Positions 30,232-39,761 of a stretch of DNA of 48,674 nt are shown in pieces. Origin of the DNA: Candidatus Poseidoniales archaeon (GTDB taxonomy: Archaea > Thermoplasmatota > Poseidoniia > Poseidoniales > Thalassarchaeaceae); assembly GCA_012964335.1 (NCBI GenBank), contig DTUF01000016.1, positions 1 to 48,674 of the forward strand, given 5' to 3'. The position numbers and the translations under genes are program-made. Within the stretch, counting starts at the first letter, position 1, and every line of letters begins with the position of its first letter. The notes beneath the pieces were generated by a model. That model saw nothing but the letters and a program-made list of their open reading frames with translations. It did not search any database and was not told the origin of the DNA.

Positions 30232-31566
30232 ATGGCTGAGATAGAGGAGGTAGATACTCGGCTTGATTATTACGTGGATGAATTAGGAATGGCCCCTTTG
30301 GAAGAACCGAAATTTGGCATCGGGCAATTACTTGCCACACTAGTTGATTTGAAGACCTTACCTCACATCCTACTTCTTCTAATTCTCTCAACAATCCTGT
30401 ATGCCCTTGCTCAAGGACCTGATACAGCAAAAGTGTATTCAGCAATCGGTTTCATTTCACTATCAGTCGGTTATGCTTTGACAGCAACTTCAACGCGTTG
30501 GGATTTTGCTCACCGTATGGTCAGAGTTGAAGGACTTGCTTCAGATTCTTGGTTCAAATCGCTCTTACTGCGCTCACTAAAAGCATGGAGTCTGCCATTA
30601 CTACTAAGCACCATAATTTGTCTTGGATTATTACAATTAATCAAGGGAGATGGTAACTGGGATTCATGGATTCCTCTTTCACTCGCTTCGCTCTTCCTGC
30701 TTTGGTCTATAGGCCAAGGTCTGTCATTCAAATCAGGGACAGCATCGTGGTTGGCTAACGGAACAAAAGTTCTCGATGACACACAACGTGAAGGTAGCGT
30801 AATGGGGATTTCTACTTGGCAAATCTTAGCTGTGACAACAGTTGCAGTGCTAATTGGATATGGCTATAGTTCTGGCTTTGAAGGTGAAACAAGTGAGAAA
30901 CTGAAATGGATTGGATTCATCATTCTTGCAATCGCCGTTCAAGTAGGAATGGTTTATTGGATTCAAGACACCTTGATTGATGTATCCTCCACTAAAGGTG
31001 GTGCTAGATTTGCCACCAGATGGGGCATGATTTCTCAGATATTTGTCACCTGGCATATCGCGAGTGCATGGAGGAGACTTATTGATGAACCATCTGCAAT
31101 TACAATGATAATTGAGGAATTTATTTTGATGGTTCTAACTGTGCTTCTAGCCATTTGGTCTTTAGCAAGTCGAGATGTTAGTCGTGGAGGAAAACTATTC
31201 ACTTCTGATAATGCGCTGTTTTGGGGATTAGCATTCGGCTTTGGATATGCAGGAAGTATAGCCATGATCACCAACCTTAGTGATACCATTGGGGGCGGGA
31301 ACCTTGCAACAACAATGGCAATTGGCCATTTAGTCACTGCAATTACTCTAATTATAATTCATCCACAGGTACTTAGGAATCACAAAAAGAGGATTTTAAA
31401 CCCACCGCAATCCTCTGTTCCAAAAATTGCCACTGCAGAGCAAATAGTTACCCATGTTGAACAAGTTGATGATACACCTGAAGTTGAGGAGAATGAAAAT
31501 CAAGAACTGGACATTGACCTTGATGACCTCGAATTCTCAGATGATGTTGCTGAATTAATGGACTAG
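30232..31566 (+). CDS. Polytopic membrane protein of unknown function
   Basis: The 444-residue protein has about ten hydrophobic segments between residues 40 and 375 (for example HILLLLILSTILYALA, AFGFGYAGSIAMI). They are followed by a strongly acidic cytosolic tail of about 60 residues ending in a Asp/Glu cluster. No transporter signature or catalytic motif was recognised. A GGAGAG ribosome site precedes ATG 30232. It is divergent from the Pop5-like gene and its stop abuts that of the FtsZ-like gene with no spacing. It could be a lineage-specific transporter or channel-like protein. Confidence 0.7.
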   Translation: MAEIEEVDTRLDYYVDELGMAPLEEPKFGIGQLLATLVDLKTLPHILLLLILSTILYALAQGPDTAKVYSAIGFISLSVGYALTATSTRWDFAHRMVRVEGLASDSWFKSLLLRSLKAWSLPLLLSTIICLGLLQLIKGDGNWDSWIPLSLASLFLLWSIGQGLSFKSGTASWLANGTKVLDDTQREGSVMGISTWQILAVTTVAVLIGYGYSSGFEGETSEKLKWIGFIILAIAVQVGMVYWIQDTLIDVSSTKGGARFATRWGMISQIFVTWHIASAWRRLIDEPSAITMIIEEFILMVLTVLLAIWSLASRDVSRGGKLFTSDNALFWGLAFGFGYAGSIAMITNLSDTIGGGNLATTMAIGHLVTAITLIIIHPQVLRNHKKRILNPPQSSVPKIATAEQIVTHVEQVDDTPEVEENENQELDIDLDDLEFSDDVAELMD

Positions 31567-32520
31567 TTAGAGCCCACTTACTACGGCAACTACTCTCATC
31601 CTACCATCTAAGTCATCAGAATGTCTTGCACCAAGAATAACTTGTGCATCGTCGGTTAACCCTCTGGTAAAAGCATCTGCAACTTGCTCCATCTGATAAA
31701 TTGACATTTGTCTACCACCCTCAAGTTGTAGAAGACAGCCACTAGCCCCCATCACCTCTAATCCTGCTAAAGGGGCTGATAGTGCTTTGAGGAAAAGTCC
31801 CTCTGGGTCATTTGCATCTCCTTCAGCAACTACCATGGTTGCCCCTCCTTTTCTTTGAACTACAGAACGAAGATCCATCAAGTCAAGATTGATTATCCCT
31901 ACTTGCCCAAGTGTCAGGACTAAGCCTTGAACTAACTCCTCAACCCATGATGGGCGGGTTCTCCAATCTACGCCTCGACTGCGGGCTTGCCAAGCCAATC
32001 GGTCTAGGGAAAGTTGGGCACAGACATCGGATGAATCCTCTAATCTGTTGAAGGCAGGTAGGGCAATTTCACACCTCGCCGAATGTTCTTCAAACGGCAT
32101 TGCTGCAATGGTGATAACTAGCGCTCCTTTACGAGCTGCTTGGGCCGCTAGCGCAGGTGCGGCCCCAGAACCAACCCCGCCTCCTAGTGCTGTGAGCAGT
32201 ATCATTAATTCAACGGGTGCTAGGATTTTATCCATTATTGCAGTCGCTTTCATGAAGTGTGATGCCGCTAATTCTGGTAGCGCCGCACAGCCAGCATCTG
32301 AGGATTCACCTAGTGGTAAACAGTGTGCATGCCGCGAATCTTCAAACGATGAGTCATCTGCATCTACTAGAAGTAAATCACATTCCTCAGCACAGCGAGC
32401 GTGGGCTCTCTTAGCCCATACCGAACCAAGGCCCCCTACCCCCGCAATCAAAAGACTCCCATCGTGCACAATCACTCCGTTATGCAGGCAAGCGATTGAT
32501 GTTTCGCTTACAACCTTCAA
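31567..32520 (-). CDS. Divergent FtsZ/tubulin-family paralogue
   Basis: The 317-residue protein reads as an FtsZ core. LLIAGVGGLGS forms the first strand and loop, ALGGGVGSGAAP (residues 112-122) takes the place of the GGGTGTGAAP tubulin signature, and NLDLMDLRSV (201-210) keeps the catalytic T7 acidic residues. The C-terminal domain ends as FtsZ does, with QVILGARHSDDLDGRMRVVAV. Differences are Thr to Val and Thr to Ser in T4, MPFE for KPFE, and SLDRL where IPNDRL normally gives the guanine-contacting Asn. There is no disordered C-terminal tail. It probably polymerises but may have altered nucleotide handling. Start TTG 32520 (or GTG 32475). It follows a TPR gene by 15 bp. Confidence 0.85.
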   Translation of the reverse strand: MKVVSETSIACLHNGVIVHDGSLLIAGVGGLGSVWAKRAHARCAEECDLLLVDADDSSFEDSRHAHCLPLGESSDAGCAALPELAASHFMKATAIMDKILAPVELMILLTALGGGVGSGAAPALAAQAARKGALVITIAAMPFEEHSARCEIALPAFNRLEDSSDVCAQLSLDRLAWQARSRGVDWRTRPSWVEELVQGLVLTLGQVGIINLDLMDLRSVVQRKGGATMVVAEGDANDPEGLFLKALSAPLAGLEVMGASGCLLQLEGGRQMSIYQMEQVADAFTRGLTDDAQVILGARHSDDLDGRMRVVAVVSGL

Positions 32521-33025: not shown

Positions 33026-33853
33026 ATGGGTGGGAAAATCAACGACTTCCGCTTCCCACTGATTGTGTTGCTTTCTGCACTCCTTTTGGTAGGAGGAACT
33101 ATTGCAGAATCAAATGGCATTTCAGGGGATAGAGCAGAGGGTGATACTGATGTTGCGAAGAGCGGTTGTACATGCCACACAAATTTTGAAATTGCACCTT
33201 CAGACAGTGTCACTTTGATTGTAGATGGCGTGCCTTACGCATGGGCTGAAGGAACATCCTACACCCTAACTATCCAGTTACTTGGCGGTCCAGAAATGGC
33301 TGGTGGCCACTCCAATACTGGGGGCTTCTCAATGCGAGTATCTTCAGGTGTACTAACCCCAGGTGCTGGATTTGAGAGTCTAGTTCACGATGATGGTTCT
33401 GAGCAAACCATGACTCACACTGAGGATGGGGCACAAACTCCTGACCGTACCTGGCAAGTCACTTGGACAGCCCCAGCAATAGATTCTGGTAATGTGACTT
33501 TCTGGGTTGCTGGAAATGCTGTTGATGGGAACTCCGCTGCAATGGCACCAGATTCATACAACCGCTTATCATTCAGCCTTTTCGAAGGTAATGACAATGG
33601 CAACACTAGGGCAATTTTTGCAGGGGATGGAAACATCCAGGCACCGGCTGCCTCGTCAGGAGGAGTTGATCTTCACAGCATGGGTGCACCATTCAGAGCC
33701 CACTGGCTCGGTCTGCTTGGATTTGGGGCTGTTATTGCTGTCCTCGTCTTCTGTGGATTCTTTTTGCGATATGGATTTAGCCACCACTACGTTGGCCGCA
33801 GTAACCTTCTCAAACTACGAATCAAACATCTACGCAGAGGTGACCAACTATGA
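33026..33853 (+). CDS. Exported, C-terminally anchored protein with a Cys-x-Cys-His motif
   Basis: The 275-residue protein has a signal sequence (FPLIVLLSALLLVGGTIA), then SGCTCHTNF near residue 48, a beta-sandwich domain of about 130 residues (GGFSMRVSSGVLTPGAGF, QVTWTAP), a linker and a C-terminal membrane helix (LGLLGFGAVIAVLVFCGFFL) with a basic cytosolic end. The layout resembles Reeler/choice-of-anchor-V proteins, which usually carry CxxCH. Here the motif is one residue shorter, so haem c binding is uncertain. It heads the Rieske/cytochrome b operon and could replace a missing cytochrome c1 as electron acceptor; this is inference. The stop overlaps the micro-ORF as ATGA. Confidence 0.75.
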   Translation: MGGKINDFRFPLIVLLSALLLVGGTIAESNGISGDRAEGDTDVAKSGCTCHTNFEIAPSDSVTLIVDGVPYAWAEGTSYTLTIQLLGGPEMAGGHSNTGGFSMRVSSGVLTPGAGFESLVHDDGSEQTMTHTEDGAQTPDRTWQVTWTAPAIDSGNVTFWVAGNAVDGNSAAMAPDSYNRLSFSLFEGNDNGNTRAIFAGDGNIQAPAASSGGVDLHSMGAPFRAHWLGLLGFGAVIAVLVFCGFFLRYGFSHHYVGRSNLLKLRIKHLRRGDQL

Positions 33854-33927
33854 CCTGCGAAGAACGACTAGAATGCTGGAGAGATGCACTCACCAATTAT
33901 CTTGCAGACAGAGGTGACAACTCATGA
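33850..33927 (+). CDS. 25-residue micro-ORF coupled on both sides
   Basis: An ATG at 33850 overlaps the stop of the exported protein (ATGA), and its own stop overlaps the next ATG at 33924 (ATGA). Both starts carry the same AGAGGTG ribosome site seven bases upstream. The peptide begins MTCEERLECWRDALTNYLAD, is soluble, contains two cysteines and one Trp, and is probably a single amphipathic helix. Placement inside a respiratory complex operon suggests a small subunit or assembly peptide. It may instead only relay ribosomes between flanking genes. Confidence 0.65.
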   Translation: MTCEERLECWRDALTNYLADRGDNS

Positions 33928-34373
33928 ATCAAGATGTAATCACCAGAATGCTTGAGCAAGTTGCTACAGGTGAAGTAAGCATTGAAGATGCCCGCACCGC
34001 ACTAAGTGGTATCGAACTCAATGAAGAAACATATGAGGCTGCAATTGACCATGGTGTGTTCAACAGAGCTGCCCCCGGTACTATTGTAAGAGCATCTCTT
34101 AGACCAAGTGGAACCTCAGCACTTGTTATTCTCACCTCAATTTGGGGATTAGGATGGACCCTTTACTGGGCTGGTAGTATGACATACGGGCTTTTCAATG
34201 GATGGGACCAACAACAACTCTCTTACCATTTTGCGATGACAATGGTTTCGCTAATTATTATGGGGATAGTCTATCTCAAATGGGTATTGCCTGACCTAGT
34301 TATTGTCAAGCATAGACGGGGTAAATATATCGGTGAAAAAGACCCCGAAAGTTGGAAAAAATATGAGGTGTGA
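33924..34373 (+). CDS. Two-helix membrane protein of the cytochrome b operon
   Basis: The 149-residue protein has a soluble helical N-terminus (VITRMLEQVATGEVSIEDAR), two membrane helices (ALVILTSIWGLGWTLYWAGS and HFAMTMVSLIIMGIVYLKWV) and a basic cytosolic tail ending next to the Rieske start. No cofactor-ligand pattern is evident. It lies between the micro-ORF and Rieske, so it is probably an accessory subunit of the quinol-oxidising complex. The AGAGGTG site at seven bases supports ATG 33924. Confidence 0.75.
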   Translation: MNQDVITRMLEQVATGEVSIEDARTALSGIELNEETYEAAIDHGVFNRAAPGTIVRASLRPSGTSALVILTSIWGLGWTLYWAGSMTYGLFNGWDQQQLSYHFAMTMVSLIIMGIVYLKWVLPDLVIVKHRRGKYIGEKDPESWKKYEV

Positions 34374-34376
34374 TGA

Positions 34377-35252
34377 ATGGCAAGGGAATTCAGACTTCGC
34401 CCCTCACCTAATGCCGATGAAGCGAGCCAAGATAGTGGATATAGCCTTGACAGGCGCCGCTTTATGCGATACTCATTCAATTCTGCAGCTGGTGTTATCA
34501 CAATGGCAAGTCTTGGTTCAATTGGGTTTGCTTCTCTTCTCATGGGTACCAAAGATGAAACGGGTGGTAGTAATTCCATCAGTTATTGGGTGCCTAAAGG
34601 ACAGGAAGCAGTTGTATGGTTCGGCTCAAAGCATCTTGAATCGATGAAAAAATCAGATTTTGAAGAACAATCTAAAACCTCTACAACCAAGATGTCGGGG
34701 GCACAGGGAGTTTGGGGTGGTATGCCAGTAACAGTAGTTTACGTCCCACACGAGGAAAACAAGGATTCACCAATATCGAGTGGTCTTCCTCGCTTCCAAT
34801 TCAAAGATGGAGTTGACCAAACTGGCGCTATTATTGGGTTTGGTGGAGAAATTGAGGATGACCCGAAGTGGTCGATGCTAAAAATTCACGATAATATCGT
34901 CATCATAATGTCACGCTGTACACATCTTTGCTGTATTCCTGGTTGGCAACTCGTTTCAAATGATTTCACTGCAGATAACTGGTTACCTGGTGGCCTAGAT
35001 GCTGGAGGGAACAAATTGTTTTGTATCTGTCATTCAAGTAGATTTGACCCTACAACAATTGAGAAGAATACCAACATAAACAAATCCACAGGGGCTGCTT
35101 TCAAATTTTTTGGAATCAAGAGAACTGGTGGGCCAGCCCCTGTTGGAATCCCTCTTATTCCGTTTAAAATAAACAATGATATTCTAGAAGTGATTGACTT
35201 TGAGGCCGAGGGAGTGGTCGAGATACTCGACTGGTACACTTATTGTAATTAG
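34377..35252 (+). CDS. Rieske iron-sulfur protein
   Basis: The 291-residue Rieske subunit takes electrons from quinol at cytochrome b. Tat-type signal SLDRRRFMRYS (about residues 23-33) precedes a membrane anchor (GVITMASLGSIGFASLLMG). Cluster box I is CTHLCC (C181, H183; C186 for the disulfide) and box II CICHSS (C216, H219; C218 for the disulfide). Compared with the usual CTHLGC, Gly is replaced by C185. The protein is longer than typical Rieske subunits, with an extra segment between anchor and cluster domain. GAGGTG precedes the ATG. It is followed by cytochrome b after 15 bp. Confidence 0.95.
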   Translation: MAREFRLRPSPNADEASQDSGYSLDRRRFMRYSFNSAAGVITMASLGSIGFASLLMGTKDETGGSNSISYWVPKGQEAVVWFGSKHLESMKKSDFEEQSKTSTTKMSGAQGVWGGMPVTVVYVPHEENKDSPISSGLPRFQFKDGVDQTGAIIGFGGEIEDDPKWSMLKIHDNIVIIMSRCTHLCCIPGWQLVSNDFTADNWLPGGLDAGGNKLFCICHSSRFDPTTIEKNTNINKSTGAAFKFFGIKRTGGPAPVGIPLIPFKINNDILEVIDFEAEGVVEILDWYTYCN

Positions 35253-35267
35253 AATGGGGGAAATGAT

Positions 35268-36134
35268 ATGTTACTACAATTTTGGTTCCTTTGGTTATTC
35301 ATTATCATCGTCACGGTGTTAGTTGCTCTAACTTTACGTAAAGAGAATGAAGACATACCCCGAAAAGAGATTCTTAGGGCTGTTGAATCCGTTGGGAAAA
35401 TGGGTCTTGCTGAGAAGTTATTCCTGTGGACCTTCTCATGGTTAGATACTAGATTCCGAATCCAAGATTATTGGGCAATGAGTCGTGATGCCTACCAATC
35501 GGTGCATCGACAAATGCCCCTAACCCACGCCGAAAAGTACAAACTCAGAATCATTTGGTACTGGTACCCACTCTACTGTTTGGGTGGAATCTCATTCCTA
35601 GCATTTATCATTCTAATTATCACAGGCACTGTTCTTGGAATTTATTATGTCCCAGGTGGAGATGGTGACCCAACTCCTGCTTACTCGAGTATGGAGTTCA
35701 TAATGACTCAATTGCCATTTGGTTACATTATCAGAAGCATCCACCACTGGGCTACGCATTTCATGGTCGCCTCAGTATTCCTTCACATGTGCCGAGTATA
35801 CTTCACTGGCGCATACCGAAACCCACGAGAGTTGAACTGGCTCATTGGGGTTGGTCTGATGTTACTTACCATAGTCTTCGGATATTCTGGTTATCTTCTA
35901 CCTTGGGATGCTCTAGCTTTTGGAGCAGCAACAATTGGTATTGCAATGGCGAAATCAACCCCGCTCATAGGTAGTTGGGTTGCAACCCTAATGTTTGGCG
36001 GCACATCTCTATCAGGAGCAGCAGTCACCAGAATGTACTTCTTACATGTATTCATTTTACCAGTAATAGTGACAACACTGATCATCATACACTTGTTTAT
36101 TGTCTGGGTACAGGGGATTGCGGAGCCGCATTGA
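35268..36134 (+). CDS. Cytochrome b, N-terminal (b6-like) half
   Basis: The 288-residue diheme quinol-oxidase core resembles cytochrome b6. It has one extra N-terminal membrane helix (FLWLFIIIVTVLVALTL), an amphipathic segment, then four core helices. Haem-ligand histidines are H159 and H173 (14 apart) in IHHWATHFMVASVFLHM, and H260 and H275 (15 apart) in FLHVFILPVIVTTLIIIH. GYSGYLLPWD is the conserved quinol-site stretch. The b6-type split is completed by the first part of the next gene. It acts in the cytoplasmic membrane with Rieske. Confidence 0.95.
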   Translation: MLLQFWFLWLFIIIVTVLVALTLRKENEDIPRKEILRAVESVGKMGLAEKLFLWTFSWLDTRFRIQDYWAMSRDAYQSVHRQMPLTHAEKYKLRIIWYWYPLYCLGGISFLAFIILIITGTVLGIYYVPGGDGDPTPAYSSMEFIMTQLPFGYIIRSIHHWATHFMVASVFLHMCRVYFTGAYRNPRELNWLIGVGLMLLTIVFGYSGYLLPWDALAFGAATIGIAMAKSTPLIGSWVATLMFGGTSLSGAAVTRMYFLHVFILPVIVTTLIIIHLFIVWVQGIAEPH

Positions 36135-36147
36135 AGGTGTGAATCAA

Positions 36148-39048
36148 ATGGGTATGATAGACAATTTTGGACGCATCGCAGATGTGTATATGCGTGAAAA
36201 AGACAAGTTGAAAGATACTGAAGAGGAACGTCGACGTACTTTTGTCGGCCACCCACTTTGGCCGCATGAAGTGCTAAGAGATAGCATAATTTTAGCATCG
36301 ATAATGGCCGTTCTGGCATTTTATTCATGGATAATTCCCCCACCTCTCCACAGTGCAGCAGACCCGTTTGCACAGGCTGGGTTCGTGTTCCCTGACTGGT
36401 ATGTTCTATTCTCATACGGATATCTCCGCTGGGGTGAGTACTTACCACAATTTGATATCCCGTTACCAAATATCATTGGAAATTTCTTTGGTTCGCCTGT
36501 TATTTCTTGGAATGCTGGATGGTGGGGTGCATTCCTTACTGGTTTCCCAGTTGGTATCTTGGCACTTCCACCATTCCTTGGCGGACGTGCTAAACGTGGT
36601 GTAGAGGACCCTTGGTTCGCTACTGCGGGAGTTATTTACTTAGCCCACGTTTGGTTCATCAGTGTCTTCTCAATCAATATCTTCCTTCTATTGTACGGGA
36701 ATAACCGTTCGGATTACTGTAAACTAAACTCTCACACGGGCCTAAGTTGCGGGGTTAGGGAACCTTGGATTGCAGATGTTTTCAATGCAATTCCTTGGAT
36801 ATTAACTGGAATTCTAATTTGGATAATGTTGTTCTTTATTGCTAAGGCATATCTCATCAAGGCAGCCGGTTCAAGAGTTAGTCCAAAAACTGGCCGCAAG
36901 GTAGCACTTGGGGCATTGATAATTGCTGTATTACTATCTGTTGTTTCATGGCCCATCTACAACGGTGGCTTCTGGGACATGGGCGGATTAGGTGCTATGG
37001 ATGATGTTGATGAGTTGGGAACACTAAGAAACCAACCTGAAGATGCCTTGCTAGCAATGGATGAAGGGAACGACTGGAGTAGTATGGAGGCGAATTGCCT
37101 AACCTACGGTGCGAGTTCAGGAAGTATGCTTTGGCAAGATACCTCATTCACAGAAGACGGAGTTGACCGTTCAGATTATTGTTTATTACCGGCAGAAAAT
37201 TGGTTGAATTGGGGTATATACCAACCCGTTCAAGAGAATATCATTGATTTTGCTGATGCAAATAATCACAAACAAACCCTGACATCTGATGGCGCAGTAA
37301 CTGGTGGTGTCAATGGATTCACAGAAATATACAATTATTCTGGAGATAGTTCTCTTTCAAGCAGTTATTCACTGAATGTTGAGGACCTTGGCGTTGATGA
37401 GTTAACAATGGATTTATCTTGCACATTTAGAACCTCAGAAAGAAAAGCTGGTGACCACAGTATCAGTGTAGATGTGACTGATGCAAGCGGCATCAGCATT
37501 GCGGAATTAGGTGGAGACCTAGAAGAAGGTGCAACTTGCATAACTAAGTCATTTGATGTTGAGCCTGGACGATATACCGTTACAATGACTATTGATTCAA
37601 CCTTTGATAGTGGTAACGCAACTGTCGTAGTGGACGCAACTTCAGATGTGTCAGTATTCCAACCATTATTGCTCAACCCTGATACTGGCATGGCTCTTGA
37701 TAGAACCAATAATACTGAATTAGCACTTGCTGGCCTTGGTGCAAATGACCTGTCATCACTTATCTTAGAGAATCCCACGTACCACCAAAATCCAAAAAGT
37801 TTGGATGCTAAACTAACCTATTCTCTATTCATTCCGCCACTTGCTCTTGGAGCAATGATTTTCGTTCTAATGCGCAGCATGGCGAGAGGATATGAGTATG
37901 AAATGAACAAGTGTTACGGGTGTGACCTTTGTGATGATGCCTGCCCAGTTAGATTGTTCACAGGTGGCGATAAACTGAACATCATTTACAACACTTGGAA
38001 TAACGAGGATGATGGAGTACCAATGTATTCTTGCTTAACCTGTACCGCTTGCACCAATGCTTGCCCTCAACTTGTTGACTACGACTCATATGTTGATATT
38101 CGTAGGAACCTGGTTGTTGGTGGACCACCAGCGGCTAATATCCCACATACTGTCTTGCAGGCAGTCTTAGCAGCTGAAGCACAAGAAGATGCAGATGATG
38201 ACTTCATTCCAACTGATGAATACCCAATCAACTCCAACGTTGCTTACTATCCTGGATGTGTTGACTACCTTGACCAAGACTTGGTATTCAGCCACCTCAA
38301 CAAGGGTGACATGAATCTCGGAGACACAACCACTGCCGCATTCACTCTTTTCGATGAGATGGGTGTTGATGTCGCTTATCTCGGTAGAGATTTCATGAAA
38401 TGTTGTGGCCACGATCAAAAATGGCAGGGCATGGATGATGTCGCTGAAAAATTGAAGACTTTCAACAAGAAGAAGTTAGAAGAGAGTGGTATTGACACAC
38501 TTGTAAGCAGTTGTGCTGAATGTTTCCGCACCTTTGCTATGGACTACGAACTAGAAGGAATCAAAGTGATGCACACTACTGAATATCTCAAAGAAGCTGG
38601 GTTTGATGTTGAATTAACTTCAAGTTGCCCTAAGAAAGTAACTTTCCATGACCCATGTAGGCTTGGCCGACAAATGGATATCTATGATGAGCCGCGTGAA
38701 CTCATAGAAAATGTGAAGGGAGTTGAATTAGTTGAGATGGAACATCACCATGATGAAGCATTATGCTGCGGAGTTTCAAGCATGATGTCATGCAACGAAG
38801 ATAGTCGAACCCTCCGAATTCAGCGATTTGAAGAAGTGATTGAAACCGGTGCTGAAATGATGATTACTTCCTGCCCCAAGTGCGTAGCGCACTTTGAGTG
38901 CCTCAAATTCGAGGGTGACCCGAGTTACAACTTTGAAATTCTAGATGTGGTTTCATTCCTTGCTCGCCAGGTAGATGAGAAGAATGCACTAGGCCAAGGT
39001 GCATCAGAAGTACTGCAAACTTCTCCCTCAGACGAAGTTGTCGCTTGA
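36148..39048 (+). CDS. Cytochrome b C-terminal half fused to an HdrD/GlpC-like Fe-S module
   Basis: The 966-residue fusion has three parts. Residues 31-270 correspond to the subunit-IV half of cytochrome b (GHPLWPHEVLRDS, PDWY at 82-85) with about five membrane helices. Residues 270-555 form a large outside beta-rich domain closed by a membrane helix (FIPPLALGAMIFVLM). The cytosolic remainder has two 4Fe-4S motifs (C589-C592-C595-C599 and C629-C632-C635-C639) and two CCG-type domains (CCGHDQ, SSCAEC; LCCGVSS, TSCPKC), as in HdrD, GlpC and LutA. ATG 36148 follows AAGGTG; an upstream frame at 36100 overlaps cytochrome b and is rejected. It likely couples quinol chemistry to a cytosolic partner; the substrate is unknown. 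Confidence 0.9.
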   Translation: MGMIDNFGRIADVYMREKDKLKDTEEERRRTFVGHPLWPHEVLRDSIILASIMAVLAFYSWIIPPPLHSAADPFAQAGFVFPDWYVLFSYGYLRWGEYLPQFDIPLPNIIGNFFGSPVISWNAGWWGAFLTGFPVGILALPPFLGGRAKRGVEDPWFATAGVIYLAHVWFISVFSINIFLLLYGNNRSDYCKLNSHTGLSCGVREPWIADVFNAIPWILTGILIWIMLFFIAKAYLIKAAGSRVSPKTGRKVALGALIIAVLLSVVSWPIYNGGFWDMGGLGAMDDVDELGTLRNQPEDALLAMDEGNDWSSMEANCLTYGASSGSMLWQDTSFTEDGVDRSDYCLLPAENWLNWGIYQPVQENIIDFADANNHKQTLTSDGAVTGGVNGFTEIYNYSGDSSLSSSYSLNVEDLGVDELTMDLSCTFRTSERKAGDHSISVDVTDASGISIAELGGDLEEGATCITKSFDVEPGRYTVTMTIDSTFDSGNATVVVDATSDVSVFQPLLLNPDTGMALDRTNNTELALAGLGANDLSSLILENPTYHQNPKSLDAKLTYSLFIPPLALGAMIFVLMRSMARGYEYEMNKCYGCDLCDDACPVRLFTGGDKLNIIYNTWNNEDDGVPMYSCLTCTACTNACPQLVDYDSYVDIRRNLVVGGPPAANIPHTVLQAVLAAEAQEDADDDFIPTDEYPINSNVAYYPGCVDYLDQDLVFSHLNKGDMNLGDTTTAAFTLFDEMGVDVAYLGRDFMKCCGHDQKWQGMDDVAEKLKTFNKKKLEESGIDTLVSSCAECFRTFAMDYELEGIKVMHTTEYLKEAGFDVELTSSCPKKVTFHDPCRLGRQMDIYDEPRELIENVKGVELVEMEHHHDEALCCGVSSMMSCNEDSRTLRIQRFEEVIETGAEMMITSCPKCVAHFECLKFEGDPSYNFEILDVVSFLARQVDEKNALGQGASEVLQTSPSDEVVA

Positions 39049-39121: not shown

Positions 39122-39454
39122 ATGAGTCAACTTGATGATGTCAAAAAACGCCGCCAACTTGAGGCAGCGCGCATCAAACAACGGCTATCCGAAATGTACG
39201 AAATAAGCGCTGAAGAAATCCCTGAGGGTGAAGAGGTAGTAGCCTTCGTGAATGTAGACCAGTGCATCGGTTGTGACCAATGTCTAATCGTTTGTGATGA
39301 TGACGCAATAGAACTTTACGACGCACCTCTAAAAAACTCTCTTCTACATGTTGAAGTGAATAAAAAAGCAAAAATTCTGCGAGACCCTTGCACCGGTTGT
39401 AGACTATGTGTTTTGGCCTGCCCTACAGATGCGATTATCATGATAGATAGGTGA
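39122..39454 (+). CDS. Two-cluster 4Fe-4S ferredoxin-like protein
   Basis: The 110-residue protein has a charged helical N-terminus (about 1-45), then CIGCDQCLIVC and CTGCRLCVLACP, two complete 4Fe-4S motifs, separated by an insert of about 20 residues. The second motif's spacing is standard; the first lacks the usual Pro after the fourth Cys. It is cytosolic and would exchange electrons with the Fe-S module encoded immediately upstream. The 73-bp gap contains an AT-rich TATTATAC string, so a separate promoter is possible. Confidence 0.9.
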   Translation: MSQLDDVKKRRQLEAARIKQRLSEMYEISAEEIPEGEEVVAFVNVDQCIGCDQCLIVCDDDAIELYDAPLKNSLLHVEVNKKAKILRDPCTGCRLCVLACPTDAIIMIDR

Positions 39455-39458
39455 GCAA

Positions 39459-39761
39459 ATGAGTGGAGAGAAAGACCCTGTACGCTTTGGTGCTGAGTTT
39501 GGCCCGTATCGCTCACAGCACCACAAGGGTGTGACACTTTCAACATTCAAGACTCTAGTCTGGGTCTCAAATATAGGCGGGTTACTGCTAGTTGTTGTCG
39601 CTTTGGAAATGATGATTATACAACAGAGATTCTACTGGGGATTAGCAGCGCTGATTGCTGGAATCGTGGTTGCACTTTTCCCATCAAATTACGAAATTGT
39701 TGGTATGGAAAAGGAAGATGAGCCAACTAGTGATGAATCGATAAACGAAGATGAGTCTTGA
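39459..39761 (+). CDS. Small two-helix membrane protein ending the respiratory operon
   Basis: The 100-residue protein has two hydrophobic helices (LVWVSNIGGLLLVVVALEMM and FYWGLAALIAGIVVALF) between a polar N-terminus and an acidic tail. No motif is recognised. It starts 4 bp after the ferredoxin with GGTGAG as ribosome site and is probably an accessory membrane subunit of the same complex. Confidence 0.7.
   Translation: MSGEKDPVRFGAEFGPYRSQHHKGVTLSTFKTLVWVSNIGGLLLVVVALEMMIIQQRFYWGLAALIAGIVVALFPSNYEIVGMEKEDEPTSDESINEDES

Follow-up and report, generated by a model that had tools for sequence, protein, structure and literature searches.

The closest precedent for the locus described here is found in the anammox Rieske/cytochrome b complexes Kuste4569-4574 and Kustd1480-1485, for which a cytosolic redox module has been proposed (PMC12954380). 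In EtfD, a CCG module is fused to a cytochrome b of a different kind; electrons from the cytosol reach heme b and menaquinone by way of its CCG and [4Fe-4S] clusters, and the Hdr pattern is altered to Thr539 and His583, which results in a linear [3Fe-4S] cluster and a capped noncubane cluster (PMC13083937). The archaea of Marine Group II (MGII), none of which has been brought into culture, rank among the most abundant archaea of ocean surface waters; they possess cytochrome b and Rieske genes while a canonical complex III is absent, a finding that was left unexplained (PMC6336850). For aerobic thermoacidophilic archaea, a 2010 review noted that the reoxidation of enzymatically reduced ferredoxin 'remains to be established' (PMC2946596).

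Here, we present an MGII operon in which the C-terminal half of cytochrome b continues in frame into an Fe-S/CCG arm. The arm is a new feature on a known kind of Rieske/cytochrome b complex, and no prior description of the fusion was found in the open-licence literature searched. An earlier sequence-only reading of this DNA had considered such a link undescribed for bc-type complexes, which holds in that literature for the covalent CCG link but has to be narrowed in view of the separate modules of the anammox complexes and the EtfD fusion. With cytochrome b and a ferredoxin-side Fe-S arm covalently joined, and this link conserved, the question of ferredoxin reoxidation becomes testable; the MGII complex would, together with the anammox complexes, exemplify a Q-cycle enzyme with cytosolic-side input or output.

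The operon and its fusion gene

The window, i.e., the whole stretch of 48,674 nucleotides that was analyzed, belongs to an MGII archaeon of the Poseidoniales, with named relatives among the matches listed in the Poseidoniaceae and Thalassarchaeaceae. The operon encodes, in this order, a reeler-like CxCH protein, a DUF7318-like protein, a Rieske protein, a b6-type cytochrome b half, the fusion protein, a ferredoxin and a two-helix protein, with the following features:

33026-33853 (+), reeler-like outside-facing subunit with signal peptide, beta sandwich and C-terminal helix (NCBIfam choice_anch_V, 7.4e-22)
33924-34373 (+), small DUF7318-like membrane subunit (PF24002, 1.1e-5, just below the cut-off; position kept in relatives)
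34377-35252 (+), Rieske iron-sulfur protein, CTHLCC ... CICH (TIGR01416, 7.9e-10 over the cluster loops, below the cut-off)
35268-36134 (+), N-terminal half of cytochrome b, b6-type (PF00033, 1.4e-42)
36148-39048 (+), fusion protein of 966 residues: C-terminal half of cytochrome b, outside domain, 2x[4Fe-4S] and two CCG domains
36148-36882 (+), subunit-IV-like part of the fusion (phmmer to b6f subunit IV, 3.6e-4)
36391-36402 (+), PDWY Qo motif, residues 82-85 (present in 138 of 141 sequences)
36973-37797 (+), outside (positive-side) beta domain between two extra helices (a gap opposite L092 and L093 in the alignment)
37798-37881 (+), last membrane helix, residues 551-578, toward the cytosolic side (hydropathy, AlphaFold model)
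37912-38064 (+), HdrC-like 2x[4Fe-4S], Cys589, 592, 595, 599 and Cys629, 632, 635, 639 (PF13183, 1.8e-7; cysteines invariant)
38239-38592 (+), CCG domain 1, Cys704, 752, 753, 789, 792 (PF02754)
38638-38895 (+), CCG domain 2, Cys837, 873, 874, 909, 912 (PF02754, 7.0e-19; five cysteines invariant)
39122-39454 (+), 2x[4Fe-4S] ferredoxin, the proposed electron donor partner (PF14697, 1.7e-12)
39459-39761 (+), small two-helix membrane protein kept in the operon (hydropathy, relatives)

Core features of the bc1/b6f superfamily are present: an N-terminal half of cytochrome b with four histidines (candidate heme pairs 159/173 and 260/275), a C-terminal half with the Qo motif, and a Rieske protein with the CxHxxC and CxCH loops (residues 181 and 216, kept in relatives). 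By these features of its predicted proteins, the operon product is a Rieske/cytochrome b complex. A YCLGG motif places Cys104 of the N-terminal half at the position occupied in cytochrome b6 by the heme c_i cysteine, and we take this residue to correspond to b6 Cys35. Split cytochrome b, subunit IV, Rieske protein and c_i cysteine are thus shared with cytochrome b6f, whereas in this operon no cytochrome f was recognized, the reeler-like CxCH protein stands on the positive side and the arm is attached to subunit IV. The anammox complexes are likewise b6f-like, with a split cytochrome b, extra subunit IV helices and a cytosolic Fe-S redox module with a proposed link to the negative-side hemes; their module, however, is a separate, FAD-containing NAD(P) oxidoreductase, whereas the CCG/Hdr-type arm of the window is covalently part of subunit IV and has no NAD(P)/FAD domain, and Pfam and NCBIfam searches revealed no NAD(P)/FAD oxidoreductase gene in the operon.

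The fusion gene is a single open frame from the ATG at 36148, which relatives share as start Met in the alignment; it coincides exactly with the uninterrupted frame, from a subunit-IV-like segment to the CCG domains, that had been noticed from the letters alone. A 982-residue call from TTG 36100 was rejected as the start because it overlaps the cytochrome b gene. Of the two Pfam domains that had been suggested for checking this assignment, PF02754 matched twice (2.5e-26, second copy at residues 831-916), whereas PF00032 gave no match to the window protein at E 0.01 but did match its relatives L093 (7.8e-10) and L092 (1.4e-4); in the window protein, residues 30-94 match b6f subunit IV (7r0w_J) in phmmer, and a 4Fe-4S dicluster was recognized at residues 585-641.

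Two extra helices (at about residues 214-232 and 252-270), the outside domain (about residues 276-550, with strands at 376-503 and no Pfam match) and the last helix are apparent from hydropathy and from a moderate-quality AlphaFold model (mean pLDDT 71). In this model the last helix runs straight into the cysteine motifs, two C-x2-C-x2-C-x3-C, but the pLDDT of the 4Fe-4S region (residues 580-669) is below 50 and cluster distances are therefore unreadable from it. Basic loops (RAKRG, KAAGSRVSPKTGRK and RSMARGYE) follow the positive-inside rule such that the Fe-S/CCG arm should lie on the cytosolic side, in agreement with the coupling to that side that had been proposed.

Relatives in Thermoplasmatota

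The fusion is near-universal in MGII, where we collected 122 distinct fused sequences from both families, at about 58-96% identity and in one frame unless the contig ends. In a search of named contigs, the matches listed (at least 80) were almost entirely from Poseidoniales, and a plasmid search yielded no match covering 80% of the fusion query, only its Fe-S/CCG part being matched. The fusion withstood, within MGII, the check for a stop or frameshift between the two halves or for its absence in close relatives that the sequence-only reading had set; the exceptions encountered were contig-end truncations, an occasional genome with fragments only and a frame break inside the outside domain in one genome (G016). 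The full frame is also present in named Poseidoniales genomes and in the single-contig genome G019; on the grounds of this contig, the many genomes and the invariant cysteines, an assembly chimera was rejected. In the named genomes, the ferredoxin and two-helix genes have the same direction as the operon at 20 loci, and both are inverted at 17.

The same architecture, which had been suggested as a target for searches in other genomes, occurs outside MGII in another Thermoplasmatota class, in the families f22 (L092/L148, Thermoplasmata archaeon nzgw66) and f25 (L093), in both cases without the MGII outside domain. In a further family, f3, which belongs to the class of the window and is taken to be MGIII, the gene is split after the [4Fe-4S] motifs, so that cytochrome b C and 2x[4Fe-4S] form one protein and the CCG domains are encoded by the next gene. 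One MGIII genus (L095:1980-2957, L142:9423-10388) has YSLGG, with Ser for the heme c_i cysteine, and keeps the Fe-S/CCG genes. The core operon without an arm is found in family f4 (L124), which shares the reeler-like, DUF7318-like, Rieske, cytochrome b N, cytochrome b C and two-helix proteins, but whose cytochrome b C has no Fe-S/CCG part and which lacks the YCLGG cysteine motif. In a tree of the cytochrome b N-halves, the branching among the armed lineages fits one as well as several origins of the fusion.

The Fe-S/CCG arm and its nearest relatives

The arm follows the Hdr module order of HdrDE and HdrBC, an HdrC-like [4Fe-4S] pair followed by an HdrB-like double CCG with, in MGII, five cysteines in each domain. 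As read from the sequence, the ligand set of the window protein is Hdr-like. On the other hand, the fusion scores far below the NCBIfam cut-offs for Hdr (TIGR03290, 17.7 vs 160; NF041779, 15.7 vs 350), its cytochrome partner is of the bc type and there is no evidence for CoM/CoB.

Both by sequence (best PDB match, 2.2e-23) and by fold (Foldseek, EtfD 8e-14, LutA 1.8e-10, HdrB 5.8e-8), EtfD is the nearest solved relative. Like the fusion, EtfD of the ETF:menaquinone oxidoreductase (PDB 9ojn) combines membrane helices, two [4Fe-4S] and two CCG domains in one polypeptide. Its membrane part, however, is a five-helix, single-heme domain, which the fusion does not have, the membrane part of the latter being a Rieske-dependent cytochrome b half that matches b6f subunit IV; and the Thr539 and His583 that stand for Hdr cysteines in EtfD align with Cys753 and Glu791 of the window protein. 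An assignment of the fusion as EtfD orthologue was rejected in view of the different membrane part and ligand residues and of a true EtfD-like paralogue elsewhere in the genome. This separate protein (G000:C35, L098:3654-5732) has 2x[4Fe-4S], two CCG domains with the EtfD pattern (CPHC, CSG) and a different membrane part, and is likely an ETF:quinone oxidoreductase.

Candidate partners and proposed electron flow

The best explanation, to which we would give about an even chance, is that the arm delivers electrons from reduced ferredoxin to the quinone site on the negative side. The operon would then encode a b6f-type Rieske/cytochrome b complex whose HdrC-HdrB-like arm on subunit IV exchanges electrons with a soluble cytosolic carrier, most likely ferredoxin reduced by 2-oxoacid:ferredoxin oxidoreductases; donor, direction of flow, route and all cofactors are our inference. 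Electrons would pass from the 2-oxoacid via the oxidoreductase to the ferredoxin (39122-39454), on to the CCG clusters and the two [4Fe-4S] clusters, and from there to the negative-side quinone site or heme b_N (to heme c_i where the cysteine is present). Quinone would be reduced at the negative side by the arm electron plus an electron recycled from heme b_P, while quinol would be oxidized at the PDWY/Rieske site, its high-potential electron going to a positive-side carrier and further to an oxidase.

Several observations argue for ferredoxin as the donor. In MGII and MGIII alike, a 2x[4Fe-4S] ferredoxin gene is linked to the operon, in line with the role as partner that the sequence-only reading had assigned to the adjacent ferredoxin. 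The clearest clue to the partner comes from the MGIII operon ferredoxin (L097:7867-8718, 283 residues), a fusion whose N-terminal part was hit by NF041165, the family of zinc-containing ferredoxins (3.8e-21, short of the curated cut-off), and whose C-terminal half is homologous to the window ferredoxin. In its motif CIADGACIDACP, the second ligand position is occupied by Asp, as expected of a [3Fe-4S] cluster. Matches to the zinc-containing ferredoxin family were not found in the MGII genomes listed in the phylum sample, from which we infer that the operon ferredoxin may be the main ferredoxin of MGII. In aerobic archaea, 2-oxoacid:ferredoxin oxidoreductase passes its electrons to zinc ferredoxins, whose cluster I has a potential of -280 mV (PMC2946596); with menaquinone near -70 to -80 mV, electron transfer from ferredoxin to quinone would be downhill. 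A need for ferredoxin oxidation is indicated by the POR domain of 2-oxoacid:ferredoxin oxidoreductase in 30/30 MGII relatives, compared with a complex I 51K NADH domain in 6 of the 30. Finally, the fold similarity to EtfD, LutA and HdrB and the loss of a CCG1 cysteine in MGIII fit an electron wire.

Other observations point away from parts of this scheme. The five cysteines in both MGII CCG domains correspond to the catalytic Hdr set, needless for a pure wire; the ferredoxin gene of some MGII genomes is about 14-15 kb away from the operon; the MGIII zinc-ferredoxin clue is weakened by the below-cut-off score, and the heme c_i route by the Ser in one armed MGIII genus. In f25, the neighbor of the fusion is not a ferredoxin but an HdrA-FlpD-like protein (L102:757-2292; FlpD 1.4e-17, HdrA2 1.9e-37), which speaks against ferredoxin as the donor there and suggests that the arm serves cytosolic donors in general as a socket. 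Ferredoxin could alternatively be oxidized by a complex I that lacks its NADH module. The wider proposal, that complex III doubles as ferredoxin oxidase via the Hdr-type arm and thereby couples 2-oxoacid oxidation of the Poseidoniales to oxygen, is tentative, and we put it at somewhat below an even chance; if true, complex III of Poseidoniales would be the respiratory counterpart of the ferredoxin-driven cyclic flow into b6f.

With regard to gene naming, the window ferredoxin scores below the RnfB cut-off (TIGR01944, 45.3 bits vs 68.7); an orphan 'RnfB' gene has been recorded for MGII (PMC6336850), and the window ferredoxin probably is the gene so named, without the rest of Rnf. The presence of the 51K NADH domain in only 6/30 MGII genomes conflicts with the 'canonical NADH dehydrogenase' wording of the literature.

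Electrons might also run in the opposite direction, with quinol bifurcation at the Rieske site and the low-potential electron reducing ferredoxin, or else some other cytosolic acceptor, by way of heme b_N and the arm. This direction has been proposed for NAD(P)H formation in anammox, by cytosolic Fe-S NAD(P) oxidoreductases on b6f-like complexes whose Rieske proteins were measured as high-potential and whose models trace a path (PMC12954380), and the topology is the same here. However, an obligate aerobic heterotroph (PMC6336850) with the oxidoreductase in all 30 relatives makes reduced ferredoxin and must oxidize it, and the reverse flow would be uphill and directed to the negative side of the membrane; we regard it as unlikely.

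An equally improbable role is disulfide or thiol chemistry, in which catalytic noncubane [4Fe-4S] clusters in both CCG domains would exchange electrons with the quinone pool, either in disulfide reduction or in thiol oxidation, as in HdrDE but with a bc-type partner. All five Hdr-type cysteines are present in each CCG domain of the MGII, f22 and f25 proteins, unlike EtfD, and the HdrA-FlpD-like neighbor in f25 would fit as well. In the MGIII sequences examined, however, CCG1 lacks one cysteine (CSGHD or TCAEG); because the catalytic noncubane pair is not kept across the family, an electron wire is favored over a disulfide reductase. Moreover, no HdrA-like protein was found in the genome of the window, a weak negative from a search without positive control, and we know of no candidate disulfide in these organisms. 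Of the disulfide or ferredoxin-linked cycle initially envisaged, the ferredoxin part has therefore gained from the MGIII fusion, whereas the disulfide part has lost ground.

Entry of electrons into the quinone pool from a flavoprotein other than ferredoxin, such as ETF in beta-oxidation or an HdrA-like protein, would agree with EtfD as nearest solved relative and again with the f25 neighbor, but the separate EtfD-type protein leaves another job to the bc-linked arm, and the MGII and MGIII operons have ferredoxin and no ETF genes, which renders such a donor decidedly unlikely. The otherwise alike armless operon of L124 might suggest an ordinary complex III whose arm, a structural or regulatory leftover, lies outside the electron path; this is very improbable given that 18/18 cluster cysteines are identical across seven divergent fused proteins and that few parts of the protein are as well conserved as the CCG region.

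Outside-facing domains and neighboring genes

Within the operon, no CxxCH subunit that would represent a c-type heme protein (c1 or f) was recognized; the first gene instead has an invariant CxCH. Its reeler-like product is similar to the F-spondin reeler domain in Foldseek (4.7e-6), and the motif G-C-x-C-H (residues 47-51; 33164-33178) is identical in 28/28 aligned MGII/MGIII sequences. This motif, one residue shorter than the CxxCH of heme sites, could form an atypical heme or metal site that accepts electrons from the Rieske protein.

Judging from the predicted proteins, extra outside domains are a recurring habit in these complexes. Instead of the MGII outside domain, the f22 and f25 proteins have Ig-like domains fused ahead of cytochrome b N, in f25, where the HdrA-FlpD-like gene comes after the fusion (L093:3618-5438, L102:757-2292, L136:1420-4644), four Big_5 domains in frame. 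In f21 (L125:6994-8733), the cytochrome b C-half continues into a laminin-G-like lectin domain and then further helices, with no Fe-S arm.

Adjoining the operon in the window are genes for a multi-helix membrane protein (30232-31566) and an FtsZ/tubulin-like GTPase (31567-32520), and the same pair lies beside the operon in a genome of the other MGII family (L099).
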